DNA from: a virus
IMG/VR virus record: IMGVR_UViG_3300033146_006838
Location: 1-45,180 of that record
Strand: one strand, 5' to 3'
Length of the DNA: 45,180 nt
The translations under genes and the position numbers were made by a program. The notes under the pieces were generated by a model. It was not told the origin of the DNA. It saw nothing but the letters and a program-made list of their open reading frames with translations, and searched no databases. Positions 276 to 36,653 of the stretch are shown one piece after another (position 1 is the stretch's first letter; every line of letters starts with the position of its first letter).

Positions 276-1942
276 TAACTATAATGATTAGGTAATGATA
301 TACGAGAATAGATATTATCAACACGGTAATTGTTGCAACCAATAAACAAAGTATCCCAAGCATCACCGCCATCGGTGCGGAACTCTGCCGGGTCATCGGG
401 AGTGTCAGGCTTCTTCTCTCCTGACTTGTCTTTGCCCCAGCCGTTAGTAGTTACGGTTGTGCCTGTTTGCTCTAATCCTTTTAGTAGTGTTTCACAATTA
501 GGCCTGTTAAACTTAGGAAACAGATTGCGTCTGGCTTTCAGTGCATCGTCTATCTCTTTATGCTTAGCATCATGTTTCATCGGCTGCCCTATGTATGTGG
601 GTGTAATAAGCCAGCCGCGCTGCTCAAGTACTCTGATAATTGTTTGATAGAATGCCTCGGTAGATATACCGGATTTGCCTTGTGCAAATGTAGAATCATA
701 ATAGAATATAACATCCTTATTAGGCAACGGCTCATAGTAATCAGCAAATTCATTACAAACCTCAGTAAGCATACGTGGATGTTTTACATATAAGGCATTA
801 AGTGTTATGAGTTCGTTCTTTGCATAATTCGGCTGTCCTACTATCAGCCAATTAATATTGATGTTAGTATCGAATGCTATACATAACGGCTGATTAACAT
901 TAATATCTGTATCTTGAGTGCAATCATACGTTTGTGTTGTTGCAGCACGCCAATCAATATCACCGTAATCAGACCGGAAATTGTTTAGATATGAATTATC
1001 ATAAGCCTGATAGTAGTGTAGTTTTTCACTCAGAGCGGCATAAAAGCCACCTTCTGTATTTTTAAGGTTTTGAGATAATAATGCTGTTCTAAAAATAAAA
1101 GGATTAGTATTCCGGAACATATCATCAATATACCTTTGTCCTACTATTTCAATGTTTTCTAAAATGTCATAAATAACATAAAGAGATAATTCTTTACGAT
1201 AAAGGTTTAGTTCGTTATTTAGAGAATTAATTTTTCTTTTATAATAATTGCTCCCGGTACTTTGTGAAATGATAAGAGAAATTTCATAAATAAGACCTTC
1301 TATTAATTTAAGAAGCTCCTTATCCATTTTGTCATCTTCATTCAACAACCAAAGTCCTTGCTTTGAAGTAGGCATATCAGACACAATAGTATAACCGGTA
1401 TGCCATGGACATTCAGTAAAATACGATAATCCGGAAGTCGCCAGTATTGTTTCATTAAGTATTTTATTATAATTAAGCGTTTTGGCTTCATCAGCTATCC
1501 AATAATCTAAAGTTAAAGAGTTTGAAGAGAAAGGAATATCTTGTGAAATTATAGGATTTACAGAACCGTTATACCAATGAATGAAGTAATCCCAACCACT
1601 GTTTGAGCGAGGTTTTATATACGGCTCTTCAAAACCGGCAGAAACCGGAGCTTTACGTCCGATAAAATAATGTTGTCTTTCGTGATAGCCTAAACGGTCA
1701 AGAGCATGTAAAGTCGCGGGTAATGTTCTTGTTAAAGCTTGCTTATAAGTTTGTGCTACTATTGCTCCCGATGAACGCGGCATCGCCTGAACATTACGAA
1801 GCAAAACAGGAGCGAGAATGCCCTCAGATTTACCGAAACGCCTTGAAGCTATTGCAGTAAGATTTCTTGCTGCAATTTGCCATACATATTGCTGTGCGGC
1901 ATTCATGTAATATTTTTTAGTCTTCATTTTCATCAATAACAA
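275..1942 (-). CDS. Terminase large subunit (TerL)
   Basis: This is the packaging ATPase/nuclease that threads phage DNA into the prohead and cuts it. A Walker A variant, SRRFGKSEG, lies at residues 33-41 and a Walker B, WIADEAK, at 148-154 with the D-E pair at 151-152. A coupling-like segment SDMPTSKQG lies at 188-196. The C-terminal half shows the acidic pattern of the RNase H-like nuclease: IAFDTN (D358), FYYDST (D416) and DGGDAWD (524-530). At 555 residues it has normal family length. Several Met codons crowd the start; Met-6 at position 1927 would reduce the overlap with the upstream small-subunit gene. It is the last gene of the head/packaging transcript, followed by an intergenic repeat. 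Confidence 0.85.
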   Translation of the reverse strand: MLLMKMKTKKYYMNAAQQYVWQIAARNLTAIASRRFGKSEGILAPVLLRNVQAMPRSSGAIVAQTYKQALTRTLPATLHALDRLGYHERQHYFIGRKAPVSAGFEEPYIKPRSNSGWDYFIHWYNGSVNPIISQDIPFSSNSLTLDYWIADEAKTLNYNKILNETILATSGLSYFTECPWHTGYTIVSDMPTSKQGLWLLNEDDKMDKELLKLIEGLIYEISLIISQSTGSNYYKRKINSLNNELNLYRKELSLYVIYDILENIEIVGQRYIDDMFRNTNPFIFRTALLSQNLKNTEGGFYAALSEKLHYYQAYDNSYLNNFRSDYGDIDWRAATTQTYDCTQDTDINVNQPLCIAFDTNININWLIVGQPNYAKNELITLNALYVKHPRMLTEVCNEFADYYEPLPNKDVIFYYDSTFAQGKSGISTEAFYQTIIRVLEQRGWLITPTYIGQPMKHDAKHKEIDDALKARRNLFPKFNRPNCETLLKGLEQTGTTVTTNGWGKDKSGEKKPDTPDDPAEFRTDGGDAWDTLFIGCNNYRVDNIYSRISLPNHYS

Positions 1943-2501
1943 CGGTTTCAGCTTGCGTAATCCTGTTATCTAAATTGTATTTTTTGCGAAGTTTTTCTTT
2001 TAACTCTTTTAAATTAGGCAAAGGTTTGATACCGAGAACAGAGGGGTCGGAAGTTATTTCAGGAAAAAAAGGAATAATATCATCAAAAGGAGGCTTAATA
2101 ATATCTTCTTTGTCTGTAAGATTATGCTTTCCGATTATGTTCAGCAAATAACCTTGAGTGTAGGCATCGCCTTTGGCAACGGCAACTTCTAAGGCTTTTT
2201 TTGCATTTTCGACAATAAAATAGCGATGCCAAACTTTTTTTGCATCGCCTGTTGCATCTTTTTCTGATGCAATCATTCTTTCTATTACCGAAATATCATT
2301 ACAAATCTGAGGAAATGTAATAAAAGGATATTTTTTTTTAGCTTTTTTATATAAATCATAATCAGTAATAATAAGCTTTTCTAATTTCAAGTCAAGAACA
2401 AAAAGCAACCTGTCAGCATATTTTTTCTCATCTTCATTAAGAACTATATGCGTATTGTCGAAACTTTCGATTATTTTTTCAATGAATGCTTTTTTAGGCA
2501 T
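1917..2501 (-). CDS. Probable terminase small subunit
   Basis: This 194-residue, highly charged protein overlaps the start of the TerL gene, the usual place of the DNA-recognition subunit of terminase. The middle (about residues 55-95) is helical with alternating basic and acidic residues, and a proline-rich segment near 140-160 precedes a basic helix. I see no textbook helix-turn-helix, so the call rests mainly on position, size and translational overlap with TerL. It may instead be an accessory packaging protein, with the shorter upstream gene at 2494-2781 being the true small subunit. Confidence 0.5.
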   Translation of the reverse strand: MPKKAFIEKIIESFDNTHIVLNEDEKKYADRLLFVLDLKLEKLIITDYDLYKKAKKKYPFITFPQICNDISVIERMIASEKDATGDAKKVWHRYFIVENAKKALEVAVAKGDAYTQGYLLNIIGKHNLTDKEDIIKPPFDDIIPFFPEITSDPSVLGIKPLPNLKELKEKLRKKYNLDNRITQAETVVIDENED

Positions 2502-2781
2502 CTGTTATTTGTTTTAGTTCAAGCTTACTTATTAATTTCAAAGCTTCTTGCTGTGCAGCCGGACTGCCCATTTTTGCTGTACTTATTATTTCTTTTCTGA
2601 TTTCATTCTCACTGATCAGTCTGCCGCGATGATATGATTTATATAAATCTGTATTAACATCCGTAACTTCATTCATAAAATCAGAAATATCAATACATAC
2701 TAATATTGCTGTTTCTTTAAATGAAAAAAAATTGGCTGCATATTCTTCAGTTTTTTTTAGAATGTCTTCTGAAAATATCAT
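2494..2781 (-). CDS. Small terminase-associated protein (possible DNA-binding)
   Basis: I chose the start at 2781 (MIFSEDILKK, 95 residues) because the longer version adds a residue run that only overlaps the upstream gene. The C-terminal part, YHRGRLISENEIRKEI followed by AKMGSPAAQQEALKLI, resembles the pattern in small terminase subunits of Bacteroidetes phages. There, a basic turn is followed by a G-S-P-A-A-x-x-x-A-L helix. It overlaps both neighbours, so it is translationally coupled to the probable TerS and TerL genes. A role in packaging is inference from position and this pattern. Confidence 0.5.
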   Translation of the reverse strand: MIFSEDILKKTEEYAANFFSFKETAILVCIDISDFMNEVTDVNTDLYKSYHRGRLISENEIRKEIISTAKMGSPAAQQEALKLISKLELKQITDA

Positions 2782-3274
2782 GTTTGTCGAATAATTGAGC
2801 TTTTGATATTGCTGTGTTAATTTTTTCAAGATAAAGGTTGTAAATATCAATATCTGTGCAAATGACACCTGCCTCGTGTGCGGGGTTTGGAGTTGCGTTT
2901 GCTGATTGATTTACTGTTATAGAAAATTTATCATTCTTTATAAGGAAGATTTTTAAATGAAAATTGCCGACATAAATTTCATCAAACAGATTTGCAGCAA
3001 AAAACATTAAATCCGTTTTATATCTGCGAACAGCAACATTAAAAACGCCTGTAATTAAATTAATATAGCCATTCTCTTTAGCTTTTTTTAAAGCTCTCAA
3101 AAATTGCTCTGAAATAGAAAAAGAAGTTATTGTAATGTCTGCTTTACCGGAAATAAAAAGCAGATAAAGCAGTAATTCGTAACTGCTCCATCTGCCTTCT
3201 GTAAAAAAGTGAGTATAAGGCTCCGAAATATCACCTATTTCGGATTTTATTTTTTTTAAATGATTACTTATCAT
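2747..3274 (-). CDS. Phospholipase D-like (HKD) domain protein
   Basis: The segment FHLKIFLI with the following VNQSANATPNPAHEAGVI matches the layout of a PLD-superfamily HKD half-site: H-x-K, then a serine/asparagine turn (S-A-N), then E-x-G-V about ten residues on. Only one such motif is present in 175 residues. An active enzyme of this family would therefore have to dimerise, as single-motif PLD nucleases do. The upstream half (ITSFSISEQFLRALKKAKENG) resembles the Rossmann-like strand-helix start of the fold. The canonical Asp of HxKx4D is not in its normal place, so activity is uncertain. It lies between virion and terminase genes. Confidence 0.55.
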   Translation of the reverse strand: MISNHLKKIKSEIGDISEPYTHFFTEGRWSSYELLLYLLFISGKADITITSFSISEQFLRALKKAKENGYINLITGVFNVAVRRYKTDLMFFAANLFDEIYVGNFHLKIFLIKNDKFSITVNQSANATPNPAHEAGVICTDIDIYNLYLEKINTAISKAQLFDKHDIFRRHSKKN

Positions 3275-3549
3275 TTGATAAATAATGGGATTATTTTGCT
3301 GTTTTTTACAAAAGCAATTCCTTTTTTAGAGTTTATCAGCGTTCTGTATTTTTCAGAAATATTTTCTTGATTGCCACCCGCTCTTGTAACAACAAAATCT
3401 TTTATTTCAAAACTTGTTATTTGAAAATTATTCCATCGTTCTTCAAAGCCTGTATCTTGGGCTATATAACCGTTGTCTATTAGTAAATATGCAGATGCTT
3501 TTTCGCCGTTAAGTACTAATGTTAAAAAATCAATAAGTATTTGTTTCAT
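3271..3549 (-). CDS. Hypothetical protein, 92 aa
   Basis: I do not recognise this protein. It has a hydrophobic N-terminal helix (ILIDFLTLVLNG), a charged middle and a basic C-terminus. Its stop overlaps the start of the PLD-like gene by four bases, so the two are probably translated together. A structured spacer of about 100 bases separates it from the upstream virion gene; it contains the inverted pairs GATAAC/GTTATC and GGCTGA/TCAGCC. Confidence 0.5.
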   Translation of the reverse strand: MKQILIDFLTLVLNGEKASAYLLIDNGYIAQDTGFEERWNNFQITSFEIKDFVVTRAGGNQENISEKYRTLINSKKGIAFVKNSKIIPLFIK

Positions 3550-3648
3550 AGCTAATTGTTAAGCGCTATCTACCTGTTGATAACATATAGTCGTTATCTT
3601 CCTGTTGGCTGAATTTTGGCTCAGCCTGTAGATTGACAGCATATATTT

Positions 3649-5271
3649 TTAAAATGGCTTTTCGTATGATTGTTTTAAGCCTAATTTATAACCTCTTTTA
3701 AAAACTTCCGGAACAATCGCTCCGTAAGGTTCTGATATTTCTCCTGTAGCTTCGTTCATATAAAACAAACTGCATTTTTTTATAGTTTTTTCATTTAAAC
3801 CATTGTGGAGATGAGAATGAGATAGCATATAGTTAACTCTTAATAAACGTGATTTAGGAACACCCCATCCCATACCTGATTCTTCACTGTCGATAATGTC
3901 AGAAAATTTAATTTTACGAATAACCGGTTTAGCCTGTGCATTATTCCAGAACATTCCGTATAAACTATAAATTGAAGTGTCAACATAGGATGTATAAAAA
4001 TAATCCATGCCGAGAGGTTTTATAACTAAACTCCAAACTGTTTTATTTCCGATTGGAGGTGTGGAACTGTAATATAATGATTTAAAAGCGTAAATTCGTA
4101 CGAAATTAGTTCCTGCATATTCCTGCACACTCGGATATGTGCCTCTGAAATTATAAGAAGTATTGTTATTAAGTTCGCAAACAATAGAGCCTTCGTTTGA
4201 GAAGAAAAGAGGATCTGCAAAATTGTTTAAAATATTATTAATAGTCTCCCAAGCTCCGTCAGTTTCATTCCAGACATTTCGATTATACCCTTCTGAATTG
4301 TTGAAACCTATTTGGTGGTTTCCATTTCTCATTTCTGTAGGAAATGCAACAAAATGGTTGTTTGCAACTGATGTCATCCAACAATCGCTTCCGTCATGTG
4401 CCGGTACTACGGGTATTTGAGAGCCTAATTCATTTCGTAAAGCCGTCCAAGCTGCGGAGATGAAAGTTGACCAAGATGCACTTAATTTTCTTTGTTTGTA
4501 ATCTTTGTATGTTGAGCGGCTTTTTATTGCTTCAATACCTTTGTTTACTCCCCATACGTTTTCAAAAGAATTTAAACTTATCTTCACATAACATCTAAGA
4601 GTAACATCGTTAGTTATATTAGTTCCATCGTTGGCAACATTAGCTGTCAGCCAATCTTTTACCAAAGCAGATGTACCGAGCTGCAAAATATTAGGACTTA
4701 TTTTTATGCCTTTGTCAAAAATGTCCCACAATGCGAAATCATAAGAACCGTAAGCGTGCATGTTTCCTTGACCAAAATCAAAAAATTTTTTATTTAAGAT
4801 AAGTCTAATGTAATCAATAGCTTTGCCTGCTGAAAATTTTAAATTTACAAAATCAAAAGTTTTTGCTTTGTGAAAATTTTTAAAGCTTAATTGTTTCTTC
4901 ACATTCGATTGTTCACTGTCTTCAATTAAAACAATATCTGTTTCAGCAGGCGTTTGTTTCTCAGGAATTAGTGTGATTTCAGATGCTACATTATCATGTA
5001 TGGCATTTACATCAGTGCCGCTTGATGATGAAGAGCAAAGGAAGAAAAAAACTTCAATTAGAACGGTGAATAATTCATCTTGCGATGCTATAGTAGGGAC
5101 TGTTACGTCTCGCCAATCTATTGGTATCGTTCCGAAAATTTCATCAACAATGTCTATTATTTCGGAATTAAGGCGTTTTCTAACACCTGCCGTATTACCA
5201 AGATTATGCTCTTGACCATTATTATTAATAATGACGTTTCCGTTTGATAATTTAGTAAATGTTATTGCCAT
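3649..5271 (-). CDS. Virion/tail appendage-like protein
   Basis: This 540-residue protein starts with a short beta-rich region (FTKLSNGNVIINNNGQEHNL). It also has the segment DIVLIEDSEQSNVKKQLSFKN, of a type common in phage appendage proteins, where a D-S-x-x-x-N-x-K-K motif leads into a structural domain. The rest is rich in Asn, Ser, Tyr and Trp without enzyme motifs, consistent with a surface fibre or receptor-contact protein. It lies at the end of the head/tail-tube gene block and overlaps the upstream small gene by ten bases. The exact role (fibre, decoration or spike) cannot be settled from sequence alone. Confidence 0.5.
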   Translation of the reverse strand: MAITFTKLSNGNVIINNNGQEHNLGNTAGVRKRLNSEIIDIVDEIFGTIPIDWRDVTVPTIASQDELFTVLIEVFFFLCSSSSSGTDVNAIHDNVASEITLIPEKQTPAETDIVLIEDSEQSNVKKQLSFKNFHKAKTFDFVNLKFSAGKAIDYIRLILNKKFFDFGQGNMHAYGSYDFALWDIFDKGIKISPNILQLGTSALVKDWLTANVANDGTNITNDVTLRCYVKISLNSFENVWGVNKGIEAIKSRSTYKDYKQRKLSASWSTFISAAWTALRNELGSQIPVVPAHDGSDCWMTSVANNHFVAFPTEMRNGNHQIGFNNSEGYNRNVWNETDGAWETINNILNNFADPLFFSNEGSIVCELNNNTSYNFRGTYPSVQEYAGTNFVRIYAFKSLYYSSTPPIGNKTVWSLVIKPLGMDYFYTSYVDTSIYSLYGMFWNNAQAKPVIRKIKFSDIIDSEESGMGWGVPKSRLLRVNYMLSHSHLHNGLNEKTIKKCSLFYMNEATGEISEPYGAIVPEVFKRGYKLGLKQSYEKPF

Positions 5272-8389: not shown

Positions 8390-9250
8390 TTATTGAGTTT
8401 TTATAGTTTTTATAGTTGGTTTATGTAATGCCAAAGCTCTTTCTATTGCATAATCAAAATTACCGATTTCATCAATCAGTGTGCCTTTTACATCTTTTGC
8501 AAAAAAAACTTTCCCGGTCAGCATATCATCGGTGACTTGCGGTCTGTTTGATTTAATTGTTTCAATAAAAGTATCTGCAACAGGGTTCAACATTTCTTTT
8601 CTTATGCCTTCATAATTACCTTCGAGAGCATCGTAAATTACTTTGTTTTTCTCAGAAGATTGGTCAGCATTAATTCTATGAAATTTCACGCCTTGCTCTT
8701 CCCAGTAAGGTTGCATATCTGCAAATGAAATCATCACCCCTATACTTCCTATTTCGTCATTAGGAAGAGATGCTATAATTTCGTCAGCAGCTGATGCTAT
8801 CCACATTCCTGCAGAACAAGCCATACCGTCAACAAAAGCCACAATCGGTTTATTTGTTTCTTTTATGATATTAGCAAGCTGTTCAGTTCCGGCTACAGTT
8901 CCGCCGGGAGAATCTATATTAAGAACAATAGCTTTAAAATTGTCATCTCGGTCAACCCTTTGAATCCAACGTCCTATAGTTTTCATTCCGACAGGTCCGC
9001 AGAATTGAGAATATTTCATCAGAGGTCCGATTACAGGAATAACAGCAATACTGTCCCTGTCTGCCTCTTCAATATCTCCTTTGATAACACCATTGCTTGA
9101 AACAGCAAAAGGTTGTATTTGCTCTTGCTCCTGAATAACAACTTTTTTTTCATTAAGAATTAGCGATAAGGTTGAACCGTAAGCTAAAGCTGTTCGGGGT
9201 TCAATGGCCCAAATTTCTTTTAATATTGCCGATGCTAACAAGATATTCAT
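8390..9250 (-). CDS. S49 (SppA-like) capsid maturation protease
   Basis: This 286-residue peptidase has the S49 signature. A strand IVLNIDSPGG at 108-117 supplies the oxyanion turn, and GMACSAGMW holds the candidate nucleophile Ser-146. GSIGV at 168-172 follows, with Lys residues near 198-201 (SSEKNK) in the region of the catalytic base. In phages such enzymes cleave scaffold and capsid N-termini during prohead maturation. The gene lies immediately upstream of the scaffold-like and capsid genes, with a two-base gap to the former. A late-type promoter (9271-9306) precedes it, making it the first gene of the head operon. Confidence 0.85.
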   Translation of the reverse strand: MNILLASAILKEIWAIEPRTALAYGSTLSLILNEKKVVIQEQEQIQPFAVSSNGVIKGDIEEADRDSIAVIPVIGPLMKYSQFCGPVGMKTIGRWIQRVDRDDNFKAIVLNIDSPGGTVAGTEQLANIIKETNKPIVAFVDGMACSAGMWIASAADEIIASLPNDEIGSIGVMISFADMQPYWEEQGVKFHRINADQSSEKNKVIYDALEGNYEGIRKEMLNPVADTFIETIKSNRPQVTDDMLTGKVFFAKDVKGTLIDEIGNFDYAIERALALHKPTIKTIKTQ

Positions 9251-9270
9251 AAATGCTTTTTAATTTATTT

Positions 9271-9306
9271 CAAAATTCAATCAAAAACTCATTAAAAAAA
9301 AGGACT
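9271..9306 (-). promoter_or_regulatory. Late-type promoter P5 (head operon)
   Basis: Minus strand: AGTCCTT, 21 bases, GAATTTTG, ending 21 bases before the S49 protease start codon. It differs by one base from the TGTCCTT seen at the other five sites and matches five of the six fixed positions of TAnnTTTG. It lies just after the terminator hairpin of the preceding gene, as expected for the start of a new transcript. Confidence 0.55.
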
Positions 9307-9312
9307 AAGAAA

Positions 9313-9339
9313 AAGCACACCTTATATAAAGGTGTGCTT
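9313..9339 (-). terminator. Terminator after the 157-aa gene
   Basis: AAGCACACCT and AGGTGTGCTT form a ten-base-pair stem with a short AT loop. On the minus strand it is followed by TTTTTC and further T runs. It separates the 9370-9843 gene from the head operon. Confidence 0.7.
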
Positions 9340-9369
9340 AAAATCAACATTATGAAAACAAAAAAAAAC

Positions 9370-9843
9370 TTATAATCTTAAATACGAAGCAGGTTTGTAG
9401 TTTTGATGTAAAAATGATAATACTCTTACAGCAACATTATCGGCGATTGAAAAATCATCTGAAATAAATACCGGGTTTTCAAGACTTCCGAAAATTAACG
9501 ATTGCGGAATTTCACAGCCTGCTACATCAATTTTTATAAGAAGCGGTTTGCCGATAAGGTTTTTTAGTATGTTTTGATTATCGGATGAACTACCGGGATA
9601 GTTTATTGAAAGCTCTTGCTTATATAAATTGCCTTCATCTTCGTAGCTGTGCTTTTGCGAGAATCTTCCGGTTTCTTTAGTCATATAAATTTCTTTCCAT
9701 TCCGAACCTGAAAAAAAATTAACGGTAACAGTTCCGTCAGTATGTTCAATAATTGATTCTACATCGGAATCCGGTATATGAATAATTGCATAATGTATTT
9801 TTGATACCGGCAAAAATAAATTAGTGTTTTTTTGTAAACTCAT
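9370..9843 (-). CDS. Hypothetical protein, 157 aa
   Basis: I do not recognise a family. The protein is beta-rich (IHYAIIHIPDSDVESIIEH, DGTVTVNFFSGSEWKEIYM), lacks a signal peptide and membrane segments, and ends with a terminator of its own. It has the look of a small virion or head-tail joining protein, but the composition alone does not prove this. A weak TGTCCCT element lies about 45 bases upstream of its start without a convincing -7 box. Confidence 0.4.
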   Translation of the reverse strand: MSLQKNTNLFLPVSKIHYAIIHIPDSDVESIIEHTDGTVTVNFFSGSEWKEIYMTKETGRFSQKHSYEDEGNLYKQELSINYPGSSSDNQNILKNLIGKPLLIKIDVAGCEIPQSLIFGSLENPVFISDDFSIADNVAVRVLSFLHQNYKPASYLRL

Positions 9844-9893
9844 AGCAGTAAATAGTTAAATGTCTGATAATCAGTAACGGCAAAGGGACAGTA

Positions 9894-10358
9894 CTACGAA
9901 ACTTTTTTATATTTCTGATATACAATAATTTGCGTGTCCTCTTTGTGTCTTTGTATATGTTTTATTAAAGTTGCAAGCTCAATGTCGTCCTCGTTGATGC
10001 CAAAAAGTGAATTGAAATTCAATATTGCTTGCTTCCGTTCAGGGTGTTTATTAAACAATTTATCGAAGCCGATGAACATAGCCAAATCCTTTCTGTAAAT
10101 ATCTTCAATCAAAGAATTAAAATCAAATACATTTCCGGCGGATAAAGTTAAATCGTATTCGTGGTCAAAAACAATTTCAATAGTGTCATTATAATCTGAT
10201 GTTTTCTTAGTTCTATTTTGATGCTCAGAGAATATTTTTATAATAAGCTTCCCAAGCATGAAGTTTTTTGAAATAACAAGTGGCAATTCACTCTTGAAAC
10301 GATTAAGAATATACTTACGCAGATAGCTTTTTATAGGTATTGATGCTTTTAATTTCAT
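9894..10358 (-). CDS. Phage protein of unknown role, possible regulator
   Basis: I placed the start at 10358 (MKLKASIPIKSYLRKYILNRF), because the longer frame adds a hydrophobic run that crosses a regulatory region. The protein (154 residues) has a basic N-terminal helix. It also has a middle segment DYNDTIEIVFDHEYDL and a C-terminal part (FNSLFGINEDDIELATLIKHI) with helix-turn-helix-like spacing. I recall similarly organised small proteins in Bacteroidetes phages, without a firm function. The leader carries the first of the TTTTGTCA motifs, so the gene may be controlled by whatever binds there. A late-gene activator role is a guess. Confidence 0.4.
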   Translation of the reverse strand: MKLKASIPIKSYLRKYILNRFKSELPLVISKNFMLGKLIIKIFSEHQNRTKKTSDYNDTIEIVFDHEYDLTLSAGNVFDFNSLIEDIYRKDLAMFIGFDKLFNKHPERKQAILNFNSLFGINEDDIELATLIKHIQRHKEDTQIIVYQKYKKVS

Positions 10359-11934: not shown

Positions 11935-12132
11935 TTAACAATTTCTTTTCTGACCTGATGCCCCTATTTGGTGCATCAGGTATTCATCATCATCTAAAAT
12001 TTTAACGGCTTTTTCAGCTTTCGCATAACCCAAAATATCGCTAATATCTTTTGCTACTATTAACGGATTCCCGTTTTCATCTGACAGAACTCTAAGTTCT
12101 TGTTTCTCGAATTTAAAAATTTCTTGTTTCAT
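11935..12132 (-). pseudogene. Truncated BRO-N domain protein
   Basis: The 65 residues match the start of a BRO-N domain: an N-terminal strand, VAKDISDILGYAKAEKAVKI, then DEYLMHQIGASGQKRN. The sequence stops there with Cys and TAA, where intact BRO-N proteins continue into the I-N-E-S-G-L-Y core. No downstream continuation in any frame was seen before the next gene. It is probably a remnant left by recombination, although the shortened peptide may still be made. The leader (CACTTAAAAAATCAATAATT just before ATG) is identical to that of the KilA-N gene at 12806, so it may have retained expression signals. Confidence 0.6.
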
Positions 12133-12239
12133 AATTATTGATTTTTTAAGTGTTTGATATTCTTTAGTTAAAAAGTAAAGCTTTGATAATTAGCCGAATA
12201 ATGCTTTTTGAAAAATTACAGTTAAATAAACTTTTTTTT

Positions 12240-12806
12240 TTACTTAAATAAATCTCTCATAAGATTAAGTTGTTGGGCATTTTCTGAACGGTTTAAATAA
12301 CCGTCTTTCTTATTTTCTTTTTCAAGTTTTTGATATTCTTTAAAATCTGAATTATCAATTAAGTTCATTTCAAGTTCAGCAAGCCGGTTCATTCGCTTTG
12401 CCTTATTCTCTAATCTTTGCTTTTGTTCGGCAAAGTGTCCAAAAATTAATTTTTCAATTGTCATATATATCCAAACTTCAAAATGCGGATTTAGCCATGC
12501 TGCAAATTTAAGTGATAGGCTTCTGTGCATAAATGTACCTGCATGACCTTTTGTTTGAATAATATCTTCTCTTTTTATTTCCTCTGAATTTACCCTTTTT
12601 GGGGTAAATTCAGATTTTTTATTTCCGCCATTTAGTGTAAATAAAAGTGCATCAATAAATGATTTTGTGTTGTCAGTTCTCAAAAAACGGTCTATCCTTT
12701 TGTCAAAAATTTTTGCCATTTGCGTAGCATTAACTTTTACGTCTCTGTCTCCGTTTAATTGAAACTCTATTTTGTGTTCGTTAAATTCATAAGTTATTGT
12801 GTCCAT
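12240..12806 (-). CDS. KilA-N domain protein (antirepressor-type)
   Basis: The KilA-N fold is clear. VNATQMAKIFDKRIDRFLRT opens the domain. Later the segments HAGTFMHRSLSLKFAAWLNP and HFEVWIYMTIEKLIFG give the G-T-F-M-H-x-x-L-x-x-x-F-A-A-W motif. KilA-N proteins bind DNA and are common as phage regulators and antirepressors. The C-terminal half is a coiled coil ending QLNLMRDLFK, a DLF-type ending like those of other antirepressors here. At 188 residues it is a full-length small member. It lies in the accessory region between integron-like cassettes and P22_AR_N genes. Confidence 0.75.
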   Translation of the reverse strand: MDTITYEFNEHKIEFQLNGDRDVKVNATQMAKIFDKRIDRFLRTDNTKSFIDALLFTLNGGNKKSEFTPKRVNSEEIKREDIIQTKGHAGTFMHRSLSLKFAAWLNPHFEVWIYMTIEKLIFGHFAEQKQRLENKAKRMNRLAELEMNLIDNSDFKEYQKLEKENKKDGYLNRSENAQQLNLMRDLFK

Positions 12807-12836
12807 AATTATTGATTTTTTAAGTGTTTGATTTTT

Positions 12837-13028
12837 TTACATCGGATAGTTACATTCATCAGTGCATGATACGAAAATCTCATAATCAAAATAATCTTCA
12901 TAAGATTTTAGTTCTTCGGCTTCATCTTTTGCATCTTGATATGAATTGTACATTTCTTTGAAACTATTGCTGTCTGTATGTAAATGTGCATCGTTGCTAC
13001 CGGGGTTTATTAAAATAACATAGTCCAT
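12837..13028 (-). CDS. Hypothetical acidic protein, 63 aa
   Basis: A small acidic protein (MDYVILINPGSNDAHLHTDS..., YQDAKDEAEELKSYEDYFDY) of unknown function. It resembles small acidic phage proteins that modify host enzymes, but this is only a resemblance. It precedes the KilA-N gene by 30 bases and likely shares its transcript. The 126 bases upstream are an AT-rich spacer ending at the third attC-like element. Confidence 0.45.
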   Translation of the reverse strand: MDYVILINPGSNDAHLHTDSNSFKEMYNSYQDAKDEAEELKSYEDYFDYEIFVSCTDECNYPM

Positions 13029-13133: not shown

Positions 13134-13152
13134 GCACATAACACTTTGTTAA
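13134..13152 (-). repeat. attC-like site 3 (partial)
   Basis: GCACATAAC followed by ACTTTGTT on the plus strand repeats the end of attC-like site 1. It lies immediately after the stop codon of the 13155-13451 gene. The matching left half is missing or fused, leaving only CCTTAAC next to GTTATGTGC on the minus strand. It looks like a deleted site. Confidence 0.4.
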
Positions 13153-13154
13153 GG

Positions 13155-13451
13155 TTAATGTTCTACCAATCGTAAGAAATAATCCTCTTCGGTTAAATGG
13201 CTTTCGTTAAAACTTAAATTAAAGCTTTGTAATTGATCTGTAGTTATTAATTCAAAAGCTATAAAATCGCTATTTTTTGTAGGCAGGTAAAGAATTACTG
13301 CATGAACTTTAACATCAGTATATTTAATTAGATGTTCAATTTTTTCAATAGGCTTGTCTAAATCTTCCTGTGAAAAAGCTTGCATCCAATCATCACTTTC
13401 GGCAATTCTTGCATAAAGATTGTCTGGCTGTATTACTTTAATTATTTTCAT
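13155..13451 (-). CDS. Hypothetical protein, 98 aa (cassette gene)
   Basis: The start at 13451 (MKIIKVIQPDNLYARIAES) is preferred over a longer frame that overlaps the upstream gene more deeply. No family is recognised. It is a soluble, mixed alpha/beta protein with DSDFIAFELITTDQLQSFNL-like strands. Its stop codon is immediately followed by an attC-like end, and it overlaps the upstream gene by 14 bases, so the pair may move together as one cassette. Confidence 0.5.
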   Translation of the reverse strand: MKIIKVIQPDNLYARIAESDDWMQAFSQEDLDKPIEKIEHLIKYTDVKVHAVILYLPTKNSDFIAFELITTDQLQSFNLSFNESHLTEEDYFLRLVEH

Positions 13452-13683
13452 TTTTAGTGTATTTAATTTTTTGAAATTCTTGGAATAATTTAAAATCTTC
13501 ATTTGTCATAAATTCAATAGCATCAATATAATTCGTTAGAATTGTATCTAAAAACATGTGTAAACTTTTGATTTTGTCTAATGAAAATTCTTTTGGCATA
13601 TTAATCATATTCATTTTTGAACTTTCCTCATTAGACAAAATCATTTTAATTAAACTCTCAATTTCTTGTTGTTTTGTTTGCAT
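13438..13683 (-). CDS. Hypothetical protein, 81 aa (cassette gene)
   Basis: A helical, charged protein (MQTKQQEIESLIKMILSNEE...) with no family I can name. Its stop lies inside the next gene, so the two are coupled. It sits between attC-like site 2 and partial site 3, consistent with a two-gene cassette. Upstream are 40 AT-rich bases separating it from site 2, with no clear promoter. Confidence 0.5.
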   Translation of the reverse strand: MQTKQQEIESLIKMILSNEESSKMNMINMPKEFSLDKIKSLHMFLDTILTNYIDAIEFMTNEDFKLFQEFQKIKYTKNENN

Positions 13684-13723
13684 AATAATAATAATAATCT
13701 GGTTTAAAGTGATGAATAAAAAA

Positions 13724-13826
13724 CCTTAACATTCGCTTGGTAAACAGTTTTGTAATTTTGTTTTTTCGTTTCACTCAAAAACTAAAAAATACAAAAACAG
13801 TTTCCAAGCTCAATAACGTTAAGTGC
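13724..13826 (-). repeat. attC-like site 2
   Basis: On the minus strand GCACTTAAC (13818-13826) opens the site two bases after a stop codon. GCTTGG, then a long imperfect stem, then CCAAGC follow, and GTTAAGG (13724-13730) closes it. The outer CTTAAC/GTTAAG and inner GCTTGG/CCAAGC pairs with bulges give the R''-L''-L'-R' layout of integron attC sites; ACTTAAC fits RYYYAAC. The closing box ends in G rather than a pyrimidine. Confidence 0.5.
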
Positions 13827-13828
13827 AA

Positions 13829-14098
13829 TTAAAAACGTTCATCATGCTTAATTTGCATAGCGAATAAACCAACGTCAAAATTTTCTTCTGTTGGATTATC
13901 AATAAATTCAAAAGCACCGAAAACTTGATAAATAACACTTTTGTCTATGCAATAATTACTAAATTCACGGAATGAAAGTATTTTTGTTTCGTAAGAATAT
14001 TCAGCCAAACGTTTTTTGTAAAAATTATATGCACTTCTAATTGAAGTCGTAAAATTCTCTTGATTAGCAGCCTCAGAACAGAGTATTATATAAATCAT
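13829..14098 (-). CDS. Hypothetical protein, 89 aa (cassette gene)
   Basis: Unrecognised protein with a short hydrophobic start (MIYIILCSEAANQEN) and a Tyr/Phe-rich body. The hydrophobic segment is too short for a confident membrane helix. Its TAA stop is followed by TTGCACTTAACGT, the same bases that follow the stop of the upstream 14233-14484 gene. A single gene bracketed by two attC-like sites is the usual organisation of an integron cassette. Confidence 0.5.
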   Translation of the reverse strand: MIYIILCSEAANQENFTTSIRSAYNFYKKRLAEYSYETKILSFREFSNYCIDKSVIYQVFGAFEFIDNPTEENFDVGLFAMQIKHDERF

Positions 14099-14157
14099 GA
14101 TTACTGTATTTGTAGTTGAAGTTGAAAAATGTTTTTAGCCTGAAAAGTAAAAATAAA

Positions 14158-14230
14158 GCACATAACACTTTGTTGGAAATCATTTTGCTGAAAAACGCAA
14201 AACGCTTCCAACAAGTGCTACGTTAAGTGC
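14158..14230 (-). repeat. attC-like site 1
   Basis: On the minus strand GCACTTAAC (14222-14230) pairs with GTTATGTGC (14158-14166), eight of nine bases. Inside, TTGTTGGAA (14206-14214) pairs perfectly with TTCCAACAA (14170-14178), with one extra base beside the stem. ACTTAAC fits RYYYAAC; GTTATGT fits GTTRRRY except one position. The 73-base length, two-stem layout and bulge match a short attC. It starts two bases after a stop codon. Confidence 0.6.
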
Positions 14231-14232
14231 AA

Positions 14233-14484
14233 TTAAGGCGTTCCGATTAATTCGTGTCGATGTTGAAACATTTTATCTTTCAAATTATACTGAAAATTAT
14301 TAAGTAACCTGCATTTTTTTTGAGCTTTTTCAGCACTTGATTTTGTCGCAAACCTGACAAATAAATAACTTCCATTAAAATATACATTTTTAATATTTTT
14401 AACATCATAAACACCTTTCAATACATCTTTCTCAAAAGATTGTGCTACTTTTTCTTGAGCTTCTAATTCTTTTTCTGAATACAT
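14233..14484 (-). CDS. Hypothetical protein, 83 aa, possible RNA-binding fold
   Basis: The segments KNVYFNGSYLFVRFATKSSA and EKAQKKCRLLNNFQYNLKDK have the strand-helix rhythm of a small RRM-like fold. F-V-R-F resembles an RNP-type strand, but the match is weak. It lies directly downstream of the P-loop ATPase gene. Its stop is the left boundary of attC-like site 1, so it may be the last operon gene or the first cassette gene. Confidence 0.45.
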   Translation of the reverse strand: MYSEKELEAQEKVAQSFEKDVLKGVYDVKNIKNVYFNGSYLFVRFATKSSAEKAQKKCRLLNNFQYNLKDKMFQHRHELIGTP

Positions 14485-14503: not shown

Positions 14504-15103
14504 TTAATAATTTTTAATATTATCTTTAAATAAAACGCCTTCTTTTTTCAGGACTACTTTAACAACTATTGTTGCTTTCTTAGGATACTCATTCCTGAAT
14601 TCTTTCTTGTCGTTAAATGTGTGCTTTAATACATTTAGAGCTTTCTTTTTTCCTGAACTACAAATGAATGCATTGCAACTCATATCGCCGTTTGTAATCA
14701 TATAAAGGTTCATTTTTTTTATTTTTGTAATATTTAATTTCGGAATGTTTTTTAGCTCTATCAATTTAATCCCAACAGGTGTATTTGCGTAAGGATAATC
14801 TGTTTTAGTAATCTTTTCTGCACATATTATAATTTCAGGCATAGCTATGCTTATTGGGTTCTGACCTTTTTTATTCACCTTAATGTTGTCGATGCTTAGG
14901 ATATAATCAATGTCTTGTTTTCTAGTTAAATCATCAAAGACAACACATTCCGTATCCTTATCTACATCACTAAAAGCAAAAGGGTCTTGCAGGTTTGTAA
15001 AACCAAGGGTTAGCCAAACTGTTTTTTTATCTTTTGATAACTCTTTTGCTTTTCTTGATTTCCCGCTTCGCAGAGGTCCTGTTATTATTGTAACTTTTTT
15101 CAT
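14504..15103 (-). CDS. P-loop ATPase of unknown role (early operon)
   Basis: The first ten residues lead into Walker A, ITGPLRSGKS, and a later CVVFDDL gives Walker B, so this binds ATP or GTP. The remainder (KMNLYMITNGDMSCNAFICS..., then TIVVKVVLKKEGVLFKDN) forms a second, beta-rich part. The ATPase core is only about 100 residues, resembling small phage kinases or zonula-occludens-type NTPases. It follows the primase-helicase operon and could assist replication or packaging; I do not recognise a specific family. Confidence 0.65.
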   Translation of the reverse strand: MKKVTIITGPLRSGKSRKAKELSKDKKTVWLTLGFTNLQDPFAFSDVDKDTECVVFDDLTRKQDIDYILSIDNIKVNKKGQNPISIAMPEIIICAEKITKTDYPYANTPVGIKLIELKNIPKLNITKIKKMNLYMITNGDMSCNAFICSSGKKKALNVLKHTFNDKKEFRNEYPKKATIVVKVVLKKEGVLFKDNIKNY

Positions 15104-15351: not shown

Positions 15352-15408
15352 AATAATCTGTAAATTTTTTAAGTGAATAATCAATATATTAAATTGTTAA
15401 TTACTAAA

Positions 15409-15663
15409 TTAGCGGACATGAAACATTACAACTAAATCTTGACGATTACGAGCTTCGATAGAAAATGAAGTCGTTTGAATGTCTGAAAACGCTTTTTTCA
15501 AAGCATTATATTCGTTATCTGAAATTCTGCCCATAACAATATTAACAGTAACAAAAAATTTATATATAGTCTTATCTGTGATAATAATTACAGGGTCGTA
15601 ACTATCAAAATCAACATTTCTAATTCTTTGAACAATGTCGTTTTTTGTAATAAAAGTTTCCAT
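15409..15663 (-). CDS. Hypothetical protein, 84 aa
   Basis: An 84-residue protein with alternating strands (DPVIIITDKTIYKFFVTVNI), a helix (NEYNALKKAFSDI) and a final strand (RQDLVVMFHVR). It lies between the primase-helicase and the 15136 gene with a leader of the TTAAAAAATTTACAGATT type. No family is recognised; the shape suggests a small alpha/beta binding protein. Confidence 0.5.
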   Translation of the reverse strand: METFITKNDIVQRIRNVDFDSYDPVIIITDKTIYKFFVTVNIVMGRISDNEYNALKKAFSDIQTTSFSIEARNRQDLVVMFHVR

Positions 15664-15689
15664 AATCTGTAAATTTTTTAAGTGAATAA

Positions 15690-18600
15690 TTAAAAAGGTA
15701 ACCCGTCATCATTAGTTTCCGGGAAATCATCAACCGGGATTTTTAATTGTTCCGGTTTTTGTACCTGTGGTTCATTGATTTTTTTTGCTTCGTTTTCAAT
15801 TTCTTCAGTAGCACCTTCTGTTGTGTGGATGAAGAAATGTTCTGTAATTTTATAGTATCCGTTTTTATTTTGCTGTGTTTCGGATTGTTTGCGAATGCGT
15901 TTGTCGTCTGTGTGTAATTCAGAAGGGTTGAATATCCAGCCTCTTATCCTGCAATAATCTGACACCAAGTGTTTGAATTTCTGGCTTGTATTATATACTT
16001 GTGTCTTTTGCCAATTGTTCATATTGAATCGCTGTTCTTCAATAAATTGCTTGTAGAACGGTACTCTGTCAACATAGCCGAAATTCTCTTTATCGTCGAA
16101 ATACAATTCAAGGAATTCGATAAGCGGCTCGCCGATGCGTTTCGTTAGCCTGAATTTTTCCATATCTTGCATCGGTGGATTTACTTCTCCGAAATGCCGA
16201 TTTGCTATATAAGCATACGCAAAAAAGTTAATCAGATTTGATTTATCTTGTACTGTGTCATCTTTATAAAGCATACGTCCGAACCAATCAGACGGTTTAC
16301 GGCGTTGCTTGAATCTGCCACTTTTATTGTCGTGAAAGAATGGAAATACAAACATACGTCCGAGTCTTCGGTCAACTCTCTCTCCTTCGTCATCAATATA
16401 ATTTCTGGTGATGATAACTTTCGGACTTTTGGCAAACGGAATTGTAATTACTTTTTTGTGCTTAGGATTTACATATATTCCGTCCGAAAAATCTGTGAGC
16501 ATATTACCTATTCTGCTTTTTAAGTGCATATCATCGCAAACAATTACACGTTCATCTTCATAACCTTCGTATCTGTGTGCATATTCGGCAAAGTCTTCTC
16601 GCTCAGCTTTTATTACAAGTGTTCGTTTTACTTCCTTTATCCCTTTTGTTATTAGTGATTTTCCTCCTCCGGCGGCACCTCGCTTGCTGTTACCGGGTAA
16701 ATCGTCAATTGCGTCAAGAATTGCCAGTCCGTAATCGTCAGCCGGCTGCCGATGGTCCTTCATGTAATATCCCAGCCATGTTATTTTATTTATTAAATGT
16801 AGTTTTATTTCCTTTATTTCATCTTCTGTAATTGTTCCTTTCGGAAATTCATACCAGAAGTCTGTTGGTTTTATAAAAAAGCCGTTAAGCTCAGCTTTCT
16901 CAAAGTAAACATAAGAAGTGGCGAACAGATATTGCAAGAAATAATTATTGCGGTCATTTATTGTAATATCGTATTTATCAAAATGCTTGAACTCGCCGAG
17001 TTTCTGAGTGTATTTGTGTTTTTCTTTGTCAGTTTTTGCGGCTCTTTTCTTCGCCAATACTTCTGCATATTGTTTATGATATGTAATTTCAAAAGGTGGT
17101 TTTTGTACTTTTGAAGGATATTTCAGTAATTCTTCTTCCCATACGTATTTTTTTAATTCATCTTGAGAACTCAGCTTAATTCCAAGTTTTGTAACTGTCC
17201 ACATATTGCCGTCGTCGAAAAAAAAGTTTTGAAAGTGTGGTCCTGAATTCTCAAAATCTAAATCAATTTGTTTCAAGTTTGAGAGGTTTTGTTCCGAAAA
17301 TCTGTTTGTTACCATTATCTTATTTCGAAGCTTTACATTCTCGCCCCTCCGACTAAGATAATTATCTACGAAAATTTTTATTTGTCTTGAAAAAATATCT
17401 TTGTCCATTTTTGAAACAACTTTACCTTGAATTTGTATATACATGTAGCCTTGCTTATCTCTTATGCTGTTGTGAGTATAGTAGCCGAAACCGTTAAGAA
17501 AGTTTTGCAGAATAACTACATTCAAATCAAAATCTTTACTTTTCTTGTCCCATTCCCAAAATTTTAACGGCAGTGCAGTGTTCAGGTGCTTTTTGAAATA
17601 ATTTTCGCTTGTCGCATCAATTAAATGTGATACAGAATAAAATTTTTGTTCAAGGTAATATGTTTTTATTTCAATGTTTTTTGATGCAATTTTCTTTGCT
17701 CTTTTGCGGTCAGAACGGTTATTTGCAGGGCATTGATATAGTTCGTAGGCAAAGCCGAGTAATTGTTCTTTTACTTCATAATCAAGTTCGGCATGTAAAT
17801 ATACAGGGTTTTCATTAATTGAAATCAAATTAAGAAAGTCAATAAAATTGTATGTTATTATTACTCTCTTTAGCTTTTGTTTGTTTTTCAAATCTTCAAC
17901 GCTTTCAGCATCATCACCGTTCGACAGCATTTCGCTTTCTATTAATGCAAGTCCGTAGGTCCAATTGTTCAATTTTCCTTTTCGATATGATGTTATTTTC
18001 GCAAATGGTTTTCGGGCGAAAGGTCTGATGATTATTTTATCATCAATAGTAAATATAGGATTTTCGAAGGTTGAAGTATGTACATGAGCTTTTCGGTTAT
18101 CAATTATTGTATATTCTTTTACGTACTTAAACTTACTGTCTCGCAAAGCATTAATACTGAGACAACCTGATATATCTAATTTATTAAAAACTTCATCAGG
18201 GAGAGCGTCTGTGGTTTTTGTCAGTTTTCCGTCTTCTTCTTGATCAGCAGCGGGGCGTGTATAATAGTTGTATTTTTTTAACTCAAGTTTATATTTATTA
18301 TCTTTTTCAAGTTCATGCAAATAAGTTTTCAATTCAGTAATCGACGGATATATATAATTGTGTTGATCAGATAAGTATTTCGCTAATTCATTTGATTGCA
18401 ACAAGTCGTTATCATCTTTGTCTTCGGGGTGTATTAATATGCTGCCGTTTTTGACATCAAAATTTTTGCGAATAAAATATAGTTGTTTAATTGCAGCCTT
18501 CTGTCCGGCAAAATTCTTATCAAAATCGAAAGCAATAATTACATTTTTGTTTTCAATATATTGTTTGAATTTGTCAACATCAGAGAACAGATTAGTTGTG

Positions 18601-19346
18601 GCAAAAATAGCAATTGCCGACGCTCCTGTTTGATATATTGACATTGCATTTATTACACCCTCGGTAATATATACACTGTCAGAATCATCACGATAAGTGC
18701 AATTGTACAATGCATTTTTAATGGCAGGGTAGTTGAATTGTTTTGCACCGTTTTCGGGTGTTATAAAATTTCGTTTGTTCAAACATTTTTTTTCTGAACC
18801 AAAAAAAACGACACCTGCCGGGTGTTCTTTATATTCATTAAGTTGAAAAAAAGAATCATCAGGCAAGTTCATTATGTCAATTGCTCTACTTTCGAGATAT
18901 TCGGCTGCTGCTGTTTTCTCGTTTTTTAAAGCTGTTTCAAGTAAGTAATTGAATGTTTTTTGCTTAGTTGCAAGTTCGGCCACTTCTTTTTTTTGTCGTG
19001 CTTTTTCGGCTCGTTCTATTTCTTTTGTTTTTTCTGCCCTTACTGATGCCGGTATATGTTCATCAATGATAATATTATATTTATCGCCGATATATTTTAA
19101 AGCTTCGGGGTAAGAAACTTTTTTATGTTCCATAACAAATTTTACACTGTCGCCTGCAGCTCCGCAACCAAAACATTTATAAATTCCTTTTGCGGGCGAT
19201 ACAATAAACGATGGTGTCTTTTCATCGTGAAAAGGGCATGTCCCGGAATAGTTTTCACCTTTTTTTTTGAGTTCAATAAAATCGCCGATTATATCTTCTA
19301 TTCTTGCAGAAGTTTTTATTCTACTGATTGTTAATTTATCTATCAT
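15690..19346 (-). CDS. Primase-helicase (CHC2 zinc finger, TOPRIM, P-loop)
   Basis: This 1218-residue replication protein starts with a DnaG-type zinc finger, CPFHDEKTPSF then YKCFGCGAAGD (C37, H40, C58, C61). A TOPRIM domain follows: VYITEGVINA with E229 and IAFDFDKN with D274/D276. The C-terminal third is a helicase-type ATPase with Walker A GAAGGGKSL (about residue 890) and Walker B VIVCDDMHL (about 935). Combining primer synthesis and unwinding in one chain is common in phages. A long middle region (about 300-850) has no motif I can name. It is the largest early gene. Confidence 0.85.
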   Translation of the reverse strand: MIDKLTISRIKTSARIEDIIGDFIELKKKGENYSGTCPFHDEKTPSFIVSPAKGIYKCFGCGAAGDSVKFVMEHKKVSYPEALKYIGDKYNIIIDEHIPASVRAEKTKEIERAEKARQKKEVAELATKQKTFNYLLETALKNEKTAAAEYLESRAIDIMNLPDDSFFQLNEYKEHPAGVVFFGSEKKCLNKRNFITPENGAKQFNYPAIKNALYNCTYRDDSDSVYITEGVINAMSIYQTGASAIAIFATTNLFSDVDKFKQYIENKNVIIAFDFDKNFAGQKAAIKQLYFIRKNFDVKNGSILIHPEDKDDNDLLQSNELAKYLSDQHNYIYPSITELKTYLHELEKDNKYKLELKKYNYYTRPAADQEEDGKLTKTTDALPDEVFNKLDISGCLSINALRDSKFKYVKEYTIIDNRKAHVHTSTFENPIFTIDDKIIIRPFARKPFAKITSYRKGKLNNWTYGLALIESEMLSNGDDAESVEDLKNKQKLKRVIITYNFIDFLNLISINENPVYLHAELDYEVKEQLLGFAYELYQCPANNRSDRKRAKKIASKNIEIKTYYLEQKFYSVSHLIDATSENYFKKHLNTALPLKFWEWDKKSKDFDLNVVILQNFLNGFGYYTHNSIRDKQGYMYIQIQGKVVSKMDKDIFSRQIKIFVDNYLSRRGENVKLRNKIMVTNRFSEQNLSNLKQIDLDFENSGPHFQNFFFDDGNMWTVTKLGIKLSSQDELKKYVWEEELLKYPSKVQKPPFEITYHKQYAEVLAKKRAAKTDKEKHKYTQKLGEFKHFDKYDITINDRNNYFLQYLFATSYVYFEKAELNGFFIKPTDFWYEFPKGTITEDEIKEIKLHLINKITWLGYYMKDHRQPADDYGLAILDAIDDLPGNSKRGAAGGGKSLITKGIKEVKRTLVIKAEREDFAEYAHRYEGYEDERVIVCDDMHLKSRIGNMLTDFSDGIYVNPKHKKVITIPFAKSPKVIITRNYIDDEGERVDRRLGRMFVFPFFHDNKSGRFKQRRKPSDWFGRMLYKDDTVQDKSNLINFFAYAYIANRHFGEVNPPMQDMEKFRLTKRIGEPLIEFLELYFDDKENFGYVDRVPFYKQFIEEQRFNMNNWQKTQVYNTSQKFKHLVSDYCRIRGWIFNPSELHTDDKRIRKQSETQQNKNGYYKITEHFFIHTTEGATEEIENEAKKINEPQVQKPEQLKIPVDDFPETNDDGLPF

Positions 19347-24409: not shown

Positions 24410-25540
24410 ATGCCTACACTTTTCATAGATTACTTACCTGCAACACTTCACGAAAACAAAGATTGGTATATAAGTTATTACGTGAAAAACCCTGCAACAC
24501 AAAAATTAAAGCGAAAAAGGATAAAATTAAATAGGATAAAGAGTAAAATTCAACGCAGACGATATTCTAAAAAACTAATTCTTGAAATTAATAAAAAATT
24601 AGAAAATGGTTGGAACCCTTTTATTGAACAATCTGCACCAAAAGCTTATACTAATATTTTTGACATATACAAAATTTGGCTTGATGTGAAAAAAAAAGAA
24701 TTACGCGATGATAGTATGCGTGTTTATAAATCGTTCGTAACTATCATTACGAATTTTTTAAAAAAAAAGTCAAATACAGATGTTTATTATGTAATTAATT
24801 TTGATAAACGAACAGCGGTTGATTTTATGAACTATTTATATAATATTCGGAATGTTTCAGGAAGAACATATAATAGTTATTTGTCTTATGCGAATACTTT
24901 GTTTAATTGGATGCTTGAAAATTCTTATGTAAATAATAATCCGTTTCAGGGTATAAGAAAGAAAAAAGAAACAACAAAAAAAAGAGTTTTGATTCCTATT
25001 GAGGATAGAAAAAAAATTAAGAAATATTTATTGAAAAACGATAAATATTTCCTCGCAACCCTCATGCTTGAGTATTATGCGTTGCTTCGCCCTAAAGAAA
25101 TTTTAAATCTTGAAATAAAAAATTTTATGTTTGAAATTTCTTTAATATATGTGCCTGCTAAAGTGTCGAAAAACGGAAAAGAAAGATTAATTACTATATC
25201 TGATGCGTTATTACCATATTTAACCGTATTAAATCTTGATTTGCATGACAAATCGCTGATAGCTTTTTCTCAAAATTTAAGACCGGGAAAAAAAATAAAA
25301 CGTACGAAGTATATGGGATATCGTTGGAGTAATATGAGAAAAATTTTAAATTTTCCGGACACATATCACATGTATAGCTTGCGAGACAGCGGCATTGTAC
25401 AGATGTTACAAGACGGCATTAGTATTGATGAGGTAGCCAAGCAAGCTGATAACAGCTCGCTCGAAATGACTTCAAAATATGCACTTCATGCAAATAAGAA
25501 GGCTTCGGAACAGATATTAAAAAAATCATCAGAAATTTAA
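24410..25540 (+). CDS. Tyrosine-type integrase
   Basis: This 376-residue recombinase has an N-terminal arm-binding part, a SAM-like core-binding domain (DDSMRVYKSFVTIITNFLKK) and a C-terminal catalytic domain. Catalytic residues visible are R227 in YYALLRPKEIL, K254 or K257 in VSKNGKERL, R325 in MYSLRDSG and the nucleophile Y357 in MTSKYALH. The usual histidines are replaced: Y322 and D326 around the second arginine, and N348 in QADNSSLEM where relatives have H. Such changes occur in some Bacteroidetes phage integrases but three at once is notable. It sits next to the candidate attP. Confidence 0.8.
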   Translation: MPTLFIDYLPATLHENKDWYISYYVKNPATQKLKRKRIKLNRIKSKIQRRRYSKKLILEINKKLENGWNPFIEQSAPKAYTNIFDIYKIWLDVKKKELRDDSMRVYKSFVTIITNFLKKKSNTDVYYVINFDKRTAVDFMNYLYNIRNVSGRTYNSYLSYANTLFNWMLENSYVNNNPFQGIRKKKETTKKRVLIPIEDRKKIKKYLLKNDKYFLATLMLEYYALLRPKEILNLEIKNFMFEISLIYVPAKVSKNGKERLITISDALLPYLTVLNLDLHDKSLIAFSQNLRPGKKIKRTKYMGYRWSNMRKILNFPDTYHMYSLRDSGIVQMLQDGISIDEVAKQADNSSLEMTSKYALHANKKASEQILKKSSEI

Positions 25541-36475: not shown

Positions 36476-36502
36476 AACTCTTTTGACATTTATGTGATTA
36501 AT

Positions 36503-36653
36503 AAAAAAAGCGTTGAGTTTGGCTGTCAAAAGAGTAGTTCGAGAACTAATACTTAACCAAAAACAACGCCCATATTTTTAGAAAAATATTGACTTGTTAA
36601 AAATAAAAAATCCGTAACATTTATAGTAGTACGGATAGTTACTACTCTTTTGA
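36503..36653 (-). ncRNA. C4-like antisense leader RNA, copy B
   Basis: Minus-strand order: TATATTTG (36659-36666), arm 1 TGTCAAAAGAGTAGT (36641-36655), a hairpin ATCCGTA/TACGGAT with T6, then arm 2 GCGTTGTTTTTGG (36557-36569). A small GTTC-TC-GAAC hairpin follows, then arm 1' ACTACTCTTTTGACA (36524-36538), and arm 2' CCAAACTCAACGC (36510-36522) leading to T7. Arm 1'' TGTCAAAAGAGT (36477-36488) is next to the ATG. Arm 1 and 1' pair over 15 bases; 1' and 1'' over 12. The core is 60 bases. Confidence 0.75.

Follow-up and report, generated by a model that had tools for sequence, protein, structure and literature searches.

The question raised by this locus is whether a run of small genes in a phage genome forms an integron-type cassette array and, if it does, to which gene each of its hairpins belongs. 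The analysis concerns an IMG/VR virus record, 45,180 bases long and referred to here as the window, in which nearly every gene lies on the minus strand. An earlier note on this DNA had described two full attC-like sites and one partial one, all in one orientation and each beside a minus-strand stop codon, and inspection located all three. The sequence TTGCACTTAACGT, which it placed after two of these stops, follows both exactly (minus strand, 13816-13828 and 14220-14232), and its copies are enclosed by a 17-bp exact repeat. The region belongs to the early part of the genome, flanked by a P-loop gene (14504-15103) and a KilA-N gene (12240-12806), and the window also encodes a primase (15690-19346) and a phage-type tyrosine integrase (24410-25540). 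The nearest named relatives are distant, with the portal at 34% to a human-gut phage and 28% to Polaribacter phage Leef_1, and a portal query among viral contigs returned one distant relative. The phage is probably a temperate phage of Bacteroidota. Elsewhere in the window a small-gene module occurs twice in nearly the same form (35391-36529 and 44349-44892, with 43651-44217); it adjoins antirepressor-like genes and its proteins begin QKPVLVQHPETGHFVNV.

An integron cassette is a unit in which the opening bases, the R' following G|TT, can pair with an R'' of the same cassette close to its far end. Read as such units, each running from the TT of one G|TT to the G of the next with a stop codon at the R' end, the array consists of two whole cassettes, X and Y, which follow one another head to tail; the phage genes on the two sides end at 14233 and start at 13028. 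The features of the region are as follows.

13134 to 13156, plus strand: left boundary; R''-like GCACATAAC, spacer ACTTT (5 bases), then G|TTAAGGTT; hairpin absent
13149 to 13818, plus strand: cassette X, 670 bp; TTAAGGTT, antisense g3b and g3a, R'' AACCTTAAC, hairpin B, G
13155 to 13451, minus strand: g3b, in cassette X; frame open from 13502, start probably the ATG at 13449-13451
13438 to 13683, minus strand: g3a, small gene in cassette X
13722 to 13826, plus strand: site B, attC-like; R'' AACCTTAAC (13722-13730), L'' GCTTGG-T-AAAC, L' GTTTCCAAGC, R' GTTAAGTGC (13818-13826)
13819 to 14222, plus strand: cassette Y, 404 bp; TTAAGTGC, antisense g2, R'' GCACATAAC, hairpin A, G
13829 to 14098, minus strand: g2, small gene in cassette Y
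14158 to 14230, plus strand: site A, attC-like; R'' GCACATAAC (14158-14166), L'' ACTT-T-GTTGGAA, L' TTCCAACAAGT, R' GTTAAGTGC (14222-14230)
14233 to 14484, minus strand: g1, flanking gene; stop 10 bp past the last crossover point

This anatomy and the matching of each cassette's own boxes are direct observations. In cassette X (GC 0.257) the own boxes match at 9/9, the R' being GTTAAGGTT of the left boundary (13148) and the R'' lying at 13722-13730; in cassette Y (GC 0.295) the R' GTTAAGTGC at 13818 and the R'' GCACATAAC at 14158-14166 match at 8/9. Both are therefore complementary enough at their own ends to be circularisable units, for which host integrons mostly show 9/9. The same rule was checked in Bacteroidota integrons, where, at most loci examined, the R'' of the first cassette is matched 9/9 by a box at attI or at the site before it. 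The inverted arms described in the earlier note are real, but outer arms match across a cassette, flanking a gene, and not only within one site. Its partial site (13134-13154) likewise exists, but represents the left boundary of the array and has no hairpin; the crossover point lies there between 13148 and 13149 (G|TTAAGG), and the boundary has 24 bp in common with the beginning of site A at 92% identity. Sites A and B are 404 bp apart, R' to R', and each shows on the plus strand the structure of an attC, with an imperfect L''/L' stem, an extrahelical T on the R''-L'' arm and an unpaired central spacer. Spacers are 0 and 5 at site A and 4 and 8 at site B, and a C precedes the GTT at both. The plus-strand R' is GTTAAGT at both sites, a full match to GTTRRRY with crossover at G|TT, while the plus-strand R'' boxes, ACATAAC and CCTTAAC, each carry one mismatch to RYYYAAC.

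Four open reading frames fall in the region, of which g2, g3a and g3b are inside the cassettes and g1 is outside; g1 was assigned to the flank because no partner R'' lies to its right. No matching boxes extending the array to the left or right were found toward g4 or g1. The empty site expected once the two flanks are joined is GCACATAACACTTTG|TTAAGTGC (also given as GAAGCACATAACACTTTG|TTAAGTGCAATTAAGG), an imperfect inverted repeat with no hairpin that may be either a decayed attC or an insertion target. Searches of g3b, g3a and g2 against Pfam, PHROG and NCBIfam gave nothing above cut-off, and no homologues of the cassette genes were detected in the phage collection, nor any of g2 and g3b among viral contigs, where the primase as query also found no relatives. 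As a separate observation, native phage genes are preceded by the conserved leaders TTAATTATTCACTTAAAAAATTTACAGATTATG and AAACACTTAAAAAATCAATAATTATG (15353-15384, 15642-15693, 12101-12164 and 12775-12838), which are absent from g2 and g3a.

The polarity of the sites was compared with that of host integrons. Integrases distinguish attC strands through the extrahelical bases of the R''-L'' arm and the unpaired spacer (PMC2727003). The comparison set comprised 76 bulged attC beside a gene stop, drawn from 80 Bacteroidota stretches around integron integrases. The bulge lies on the R''-L'' arm, in gene direction, in 74 of these 76, and the 5' spacer is the shorter in 56 and equal in 13. When sites A and B are read in gene direction, their bulge and spacer plan is the opposite of that in host integrons; on the plus strand, the bulge is on the expected arm, the spacers run from short to long, GTT is preceded by C, and the GTTRRRY box is complete. 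Because all of these elements read on the plus strand, attC polarity is plus and the minus-strand genes are backwards, an observation that can be made directly at both sites. The usual agreement of a gene with the direction of its attC is thus absent, and both cassettes are reversed. Judged from these sequence elements, a hairpin goes with the gene that starts downstream of it and not with the gene whose stop it follows, as had been supposed, and the start codon of a cassette gene is 40-60 bp from its own attC hairpin. The boxes quoted in the earlier note follow the attC plan only in part: R'' ACTTAAC fits on the minus strand, but the minus-strand R' boxes GTTATGT and GTTAAGG each miss GTTRRRY.

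To evaluate the arrangement statistically, a chain was defined by own R'/R'' matches of at least 8/9 and a hairpin of at least 8.5 pairs per gap. The 45-kb window contains one two-cassette chain, whereas such a chain arose in 2 of 1500 dinucleotide shuffles and, with canonical attC features added, in none of 1500; a looser chain score was reached in 1 of 150 shuffles. Hairpin folding relative to shuffles gave z values of -4.6 (minus strand) and -3.8 (plus strand) for site A and of -3.4 and -2.6, respectively, for site B. The window sites are integron-like and their arrangement is beyond chance; the proposal of attC-type sites bounding cassette units is supported by the own boxes (9/9 and 8/9) and the chain result. 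Simple patterns were of little use. A loose box scan of the window did not separate the sites from noise, viral and bacterial matches to the exact pattern GCACTTAACN{30,60}GTTATGTGC looked like chance and lay mostly inside coding sequence, the AACAAAGTGTTATGTGC pattern gave two chance matches and the joint pattern none, and an Rfam search returned no relevant match.

Covariance models, named in the earlier note as a check and possible refutation, scored the sites weakly. Two were built with the window excluded, R1 from 23 host attC and R2 from 11 phage attC. Site A received 3.2 bits from R1 and 11.4 bits from R2 (plus strand, rank 2 in the window, rough E 3.4); site B was matched by neither, and R2 missed it because of its long terminal loop. 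Held-out host sites scored 21-39 bits with R1, and the experimentally validated attC of phage TJE1 26.3 and 23.9 bits; R2 gave 20-45 bits on other phage sites, some of which are training sites or near copies. Published phage practice employs a threshold of 20 bits (PMC9892861), and both A and B, scored here with our own models, fall below it. R1 also misses P12002L and, at E 0.1, the real AT-rich array L156. Since the host model misses real AT-rich arrays too, the weak scores were not counted as a refutation of the attC reading. L156 is itself a Bacteroidota integron (400-3900, intI at about 9035-9916) whose integrase and cassette genes run in the same direction and whose AT-rich attC share an inner palindrome (AAGGGTTTTAACCCGC); it had been considered as a second reversed array and was rejected on its usual spacer order.

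The Flavobacterium phages filifjonk9-1 and mumin6-1 (L181 vs L182, 1648-4425) have flanks that are 99.9% identical, and comparison of the two revealed in filifjonk9-1 an inserted G-to-G cassette of 412 bp, placed precisely at G|TTATAAG. Three further cassettes in filifjonk9-1 were added behind a hairpin that was already there, at G|TTAGTGGC. This precise insertion at G|TT was observed directly, in sister phages sharing the layout of the window; a DNA methyltransferase cassette is among the insertions of this pair. Eleven related Flavobacterium phage genomes carry chains of 5-12 cassettes, 30 of them distinct, with own boxes at 9/9 in 24 and 8/9 in 6 and with the plus spacer order in 29 of 30. 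Of 109 breakpoints among the 11 phages, 63 are no more than 15 bp from a G|TT boundary, against 4.6% expected, although the breakpoints come from related genomes and are not all independent; chain selection required boxes of at least 8/9, which leaves the breakpoint figure and the orientation as the only free tests. In the Polaribacter phage P12002L, the site at 30003-30059 has plus polarity with flanking genes on the minus strand, own boxes at 9/9 and spacers of 3 and 6. A 1.0-kb methyltransferase cassette, 98.6% identical between P12002L and P12002S, occupies different array positions in the two (L111 29238-32295 vs L179 3461-5248) and ends in CCAAACG|TTACCTGC in one and CCAAACG|TTAGCAAC in the other. 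A further attC-like site of P12002L (L111 38030-38095) adjoins a Mom-like DNA modification gene.

A polarity-specific pattern search of IMG/VR yielded 13 contigs (L191-L203), in which the left gene is opposed to the attC in 13 of 13 and the right gene in 12 of 12. Of 31 sequence-distinct phage sites, two in the window and 29 elsewhere, 29 have an opposed left gene; the right gene is opposed in 30 of 30. Every one of the 31 is from a Bacteroidota phage or from a contig retrieved with a site of such a phage, and the sample therefore does not bear on phages of other phyla; in TJE1 both sites lie at the ends of forward genes.

Several other explanations were weighed against these results. If X and Y were ordinary forward cassettes, each site would belong to the gene whose stop precedes it and attC polarity would be on the minus strand. 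The sites do lie 0-4 bp past stop codons, as in canonical cassettes, and the minus-strand R'' ACTTAAC fits RYYYAAC, but the extrahelical bases, spacers, C before GTT and GTTRRRY box point to the plus strand at both sites, and the unit inserted in the sister phage holds its hairpin upstream of a gene start rather than after a stop, which leaves forward cassettes very unlikely. It is highly improbable that the hairpins act between the small early genes as terminators of transcription or as regulatory elements. They are positioned between co-directional genes with T-rich sequence 3' of them on the minus strand; a terminator scan, however, was negative at both sites, a GC-rich stem followed by a direct T run is lacking, and matching boxes at both gene ends and the 2/1500 chain would go unexplained. 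Chance resemblance in an AT-rich genome could account for the frequency of loose attC patterns in the window and for the location of the top whole-window covariance matches elsewhere, but the chain statistics and a layout equal to that of 29 independent phage sites make it scarcely tenable.

A further alternative is an exchange of modules by homologous or illegitimate phage recombination, with the hairpin repeats (former attC or shared palindromes) as substrates and no integron integrase involved. Identities of 17 bp and 24 bp between sites would permit it, and the low covariance scores, the absence of an integron integrase from the window and the 46 of 109 sister-phage breakpoints away from detected boundaries are all compatible with it. 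Nevertheless, the first filifjonk insertion point shares only GTTATAAG and the empty phage has no hairpin there, and homologous exchange does not predict the matching of boxes within a cassette; we regard it as unlikely. Insertion itself was seen in the sister phages and not in the window phage, as no cassette-free relative of the latter (empty site) was found in the phage and viral-contig searches.

The preferred reading is an array moved by an integrase from outside the phage. No integron integrase was found in the window, in agreement with the earlier note, as its sole tyrosine recombinase (24410-25540) matches XerC/XerD and phage-integrase models and not TIGR02249, which suggests a captured array without integrase. 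With intI not found and the left boundary, tried as an attI, rejected as unlike Bacteroidota attI, the locus is not a complete integron; two close sites and no TIGR02249 match make it a candidate CALIN (at least two close attC, no intI), with both sites under the score threshold. We consider it likely that the window holds a short integrase-less array of integron type (CALIN) with backwards genes, moved by host IntI, in a temperate Bacteroidota phage. The minus strand, at once the coding strand and the attC 'bottom' strand, would form hairpins A and B when single-stranded. The host, not the phage, would provide an integron integrase to cut at G|TT and insert or remove a circular cassette, and leftward phage transcription would then read the cassette genes. 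IntI above the TIGR02249 cut-off occurs in 105 of 395 sampled Bacteroidota genomes, and the attC2 site of P12002L (P12002L_attC2) was recombined by IntI1 on the bottom strand (PMC9892861). For the window phage we infer the action of host IntI, the expression of the cassette genes, the direction of acquisition and the host.

Comparison with known systems places this array among phage CALIN arrays, published in 2023 and including P12002L with its functional attC2 (Qi et al. 2023, PMC9892861). Cassettes in Bacteroidetes phages, expected by the earlier note to be unusual, have thus been reported in a Polaribacter phage and are carried as arrays by many Flavobacterium phages and IMG/VR contigs. Like the window phage, P12002L is a Bacteroidota phage with attC-bounded cassettes, no integrase and the extrahelical base on the plus-strand 5' arm; unlike it, P12002L is lytic and has methyltransferases, whereas the window phage is probably temperate, with small orphan genes and lower-scoring sites. 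The Flavobacterium arrays of Muminvirus, Lillamyvirus and Hattifnattvirus (genomes in PMC7077304) share with the window boxes at 8-9/9, plus polarity against minus-strand genes and a start near the hairpin, but they chain 5-12 cassettes with evident sister turnover and many methyltransferases, in contrast to two cassettes and no known sister. Bacteroidota chromosomal integrons resemble the window in box matching within the cassette, G|TT crossover, extrahelical base and spacer plan, but differ in having forward genes (74/76), an IntI and an attI (TATAATATTATG|TTA, about 220 bp from intI). The 2023 paper mentions 'divergent directions' in P12002L and describes no systematic backwards layout, nor does its main text mention Flavobacterium phages (PMC9892861); the report of the Flavobacterium phages does not mention integrons (PMC7077304). 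No description of systematic gene reversal was found in the literature searched, which covers few subscription journals. Phage-borne cassettes were already known, and the backwards orientation of their genes appears to be new.

These results add a probably temperate Bacteroidota phage to the phages that carry cassettes and bring out a wrong-way gene rule that seems undescribed. The action of host integron integrases on phage genomes, and the standing of reversed cassettes as a separate gene pool, have become testable. Tentatively, Bacteroidota phages may share a phage-specific pool of all-reversed cassettes, transcribed by the phage and antisense to the host array promoter, which host integrases might swap between phages, altering their methyltransferases and with them the restriction systems survived. 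In the Flavobacterium phages, plating efficiency on a second host is associated with the presence of one methyltransferase gene (PMC7077304), so the exchange of cassettes could offer phages a natural way to meet new restriction systems.
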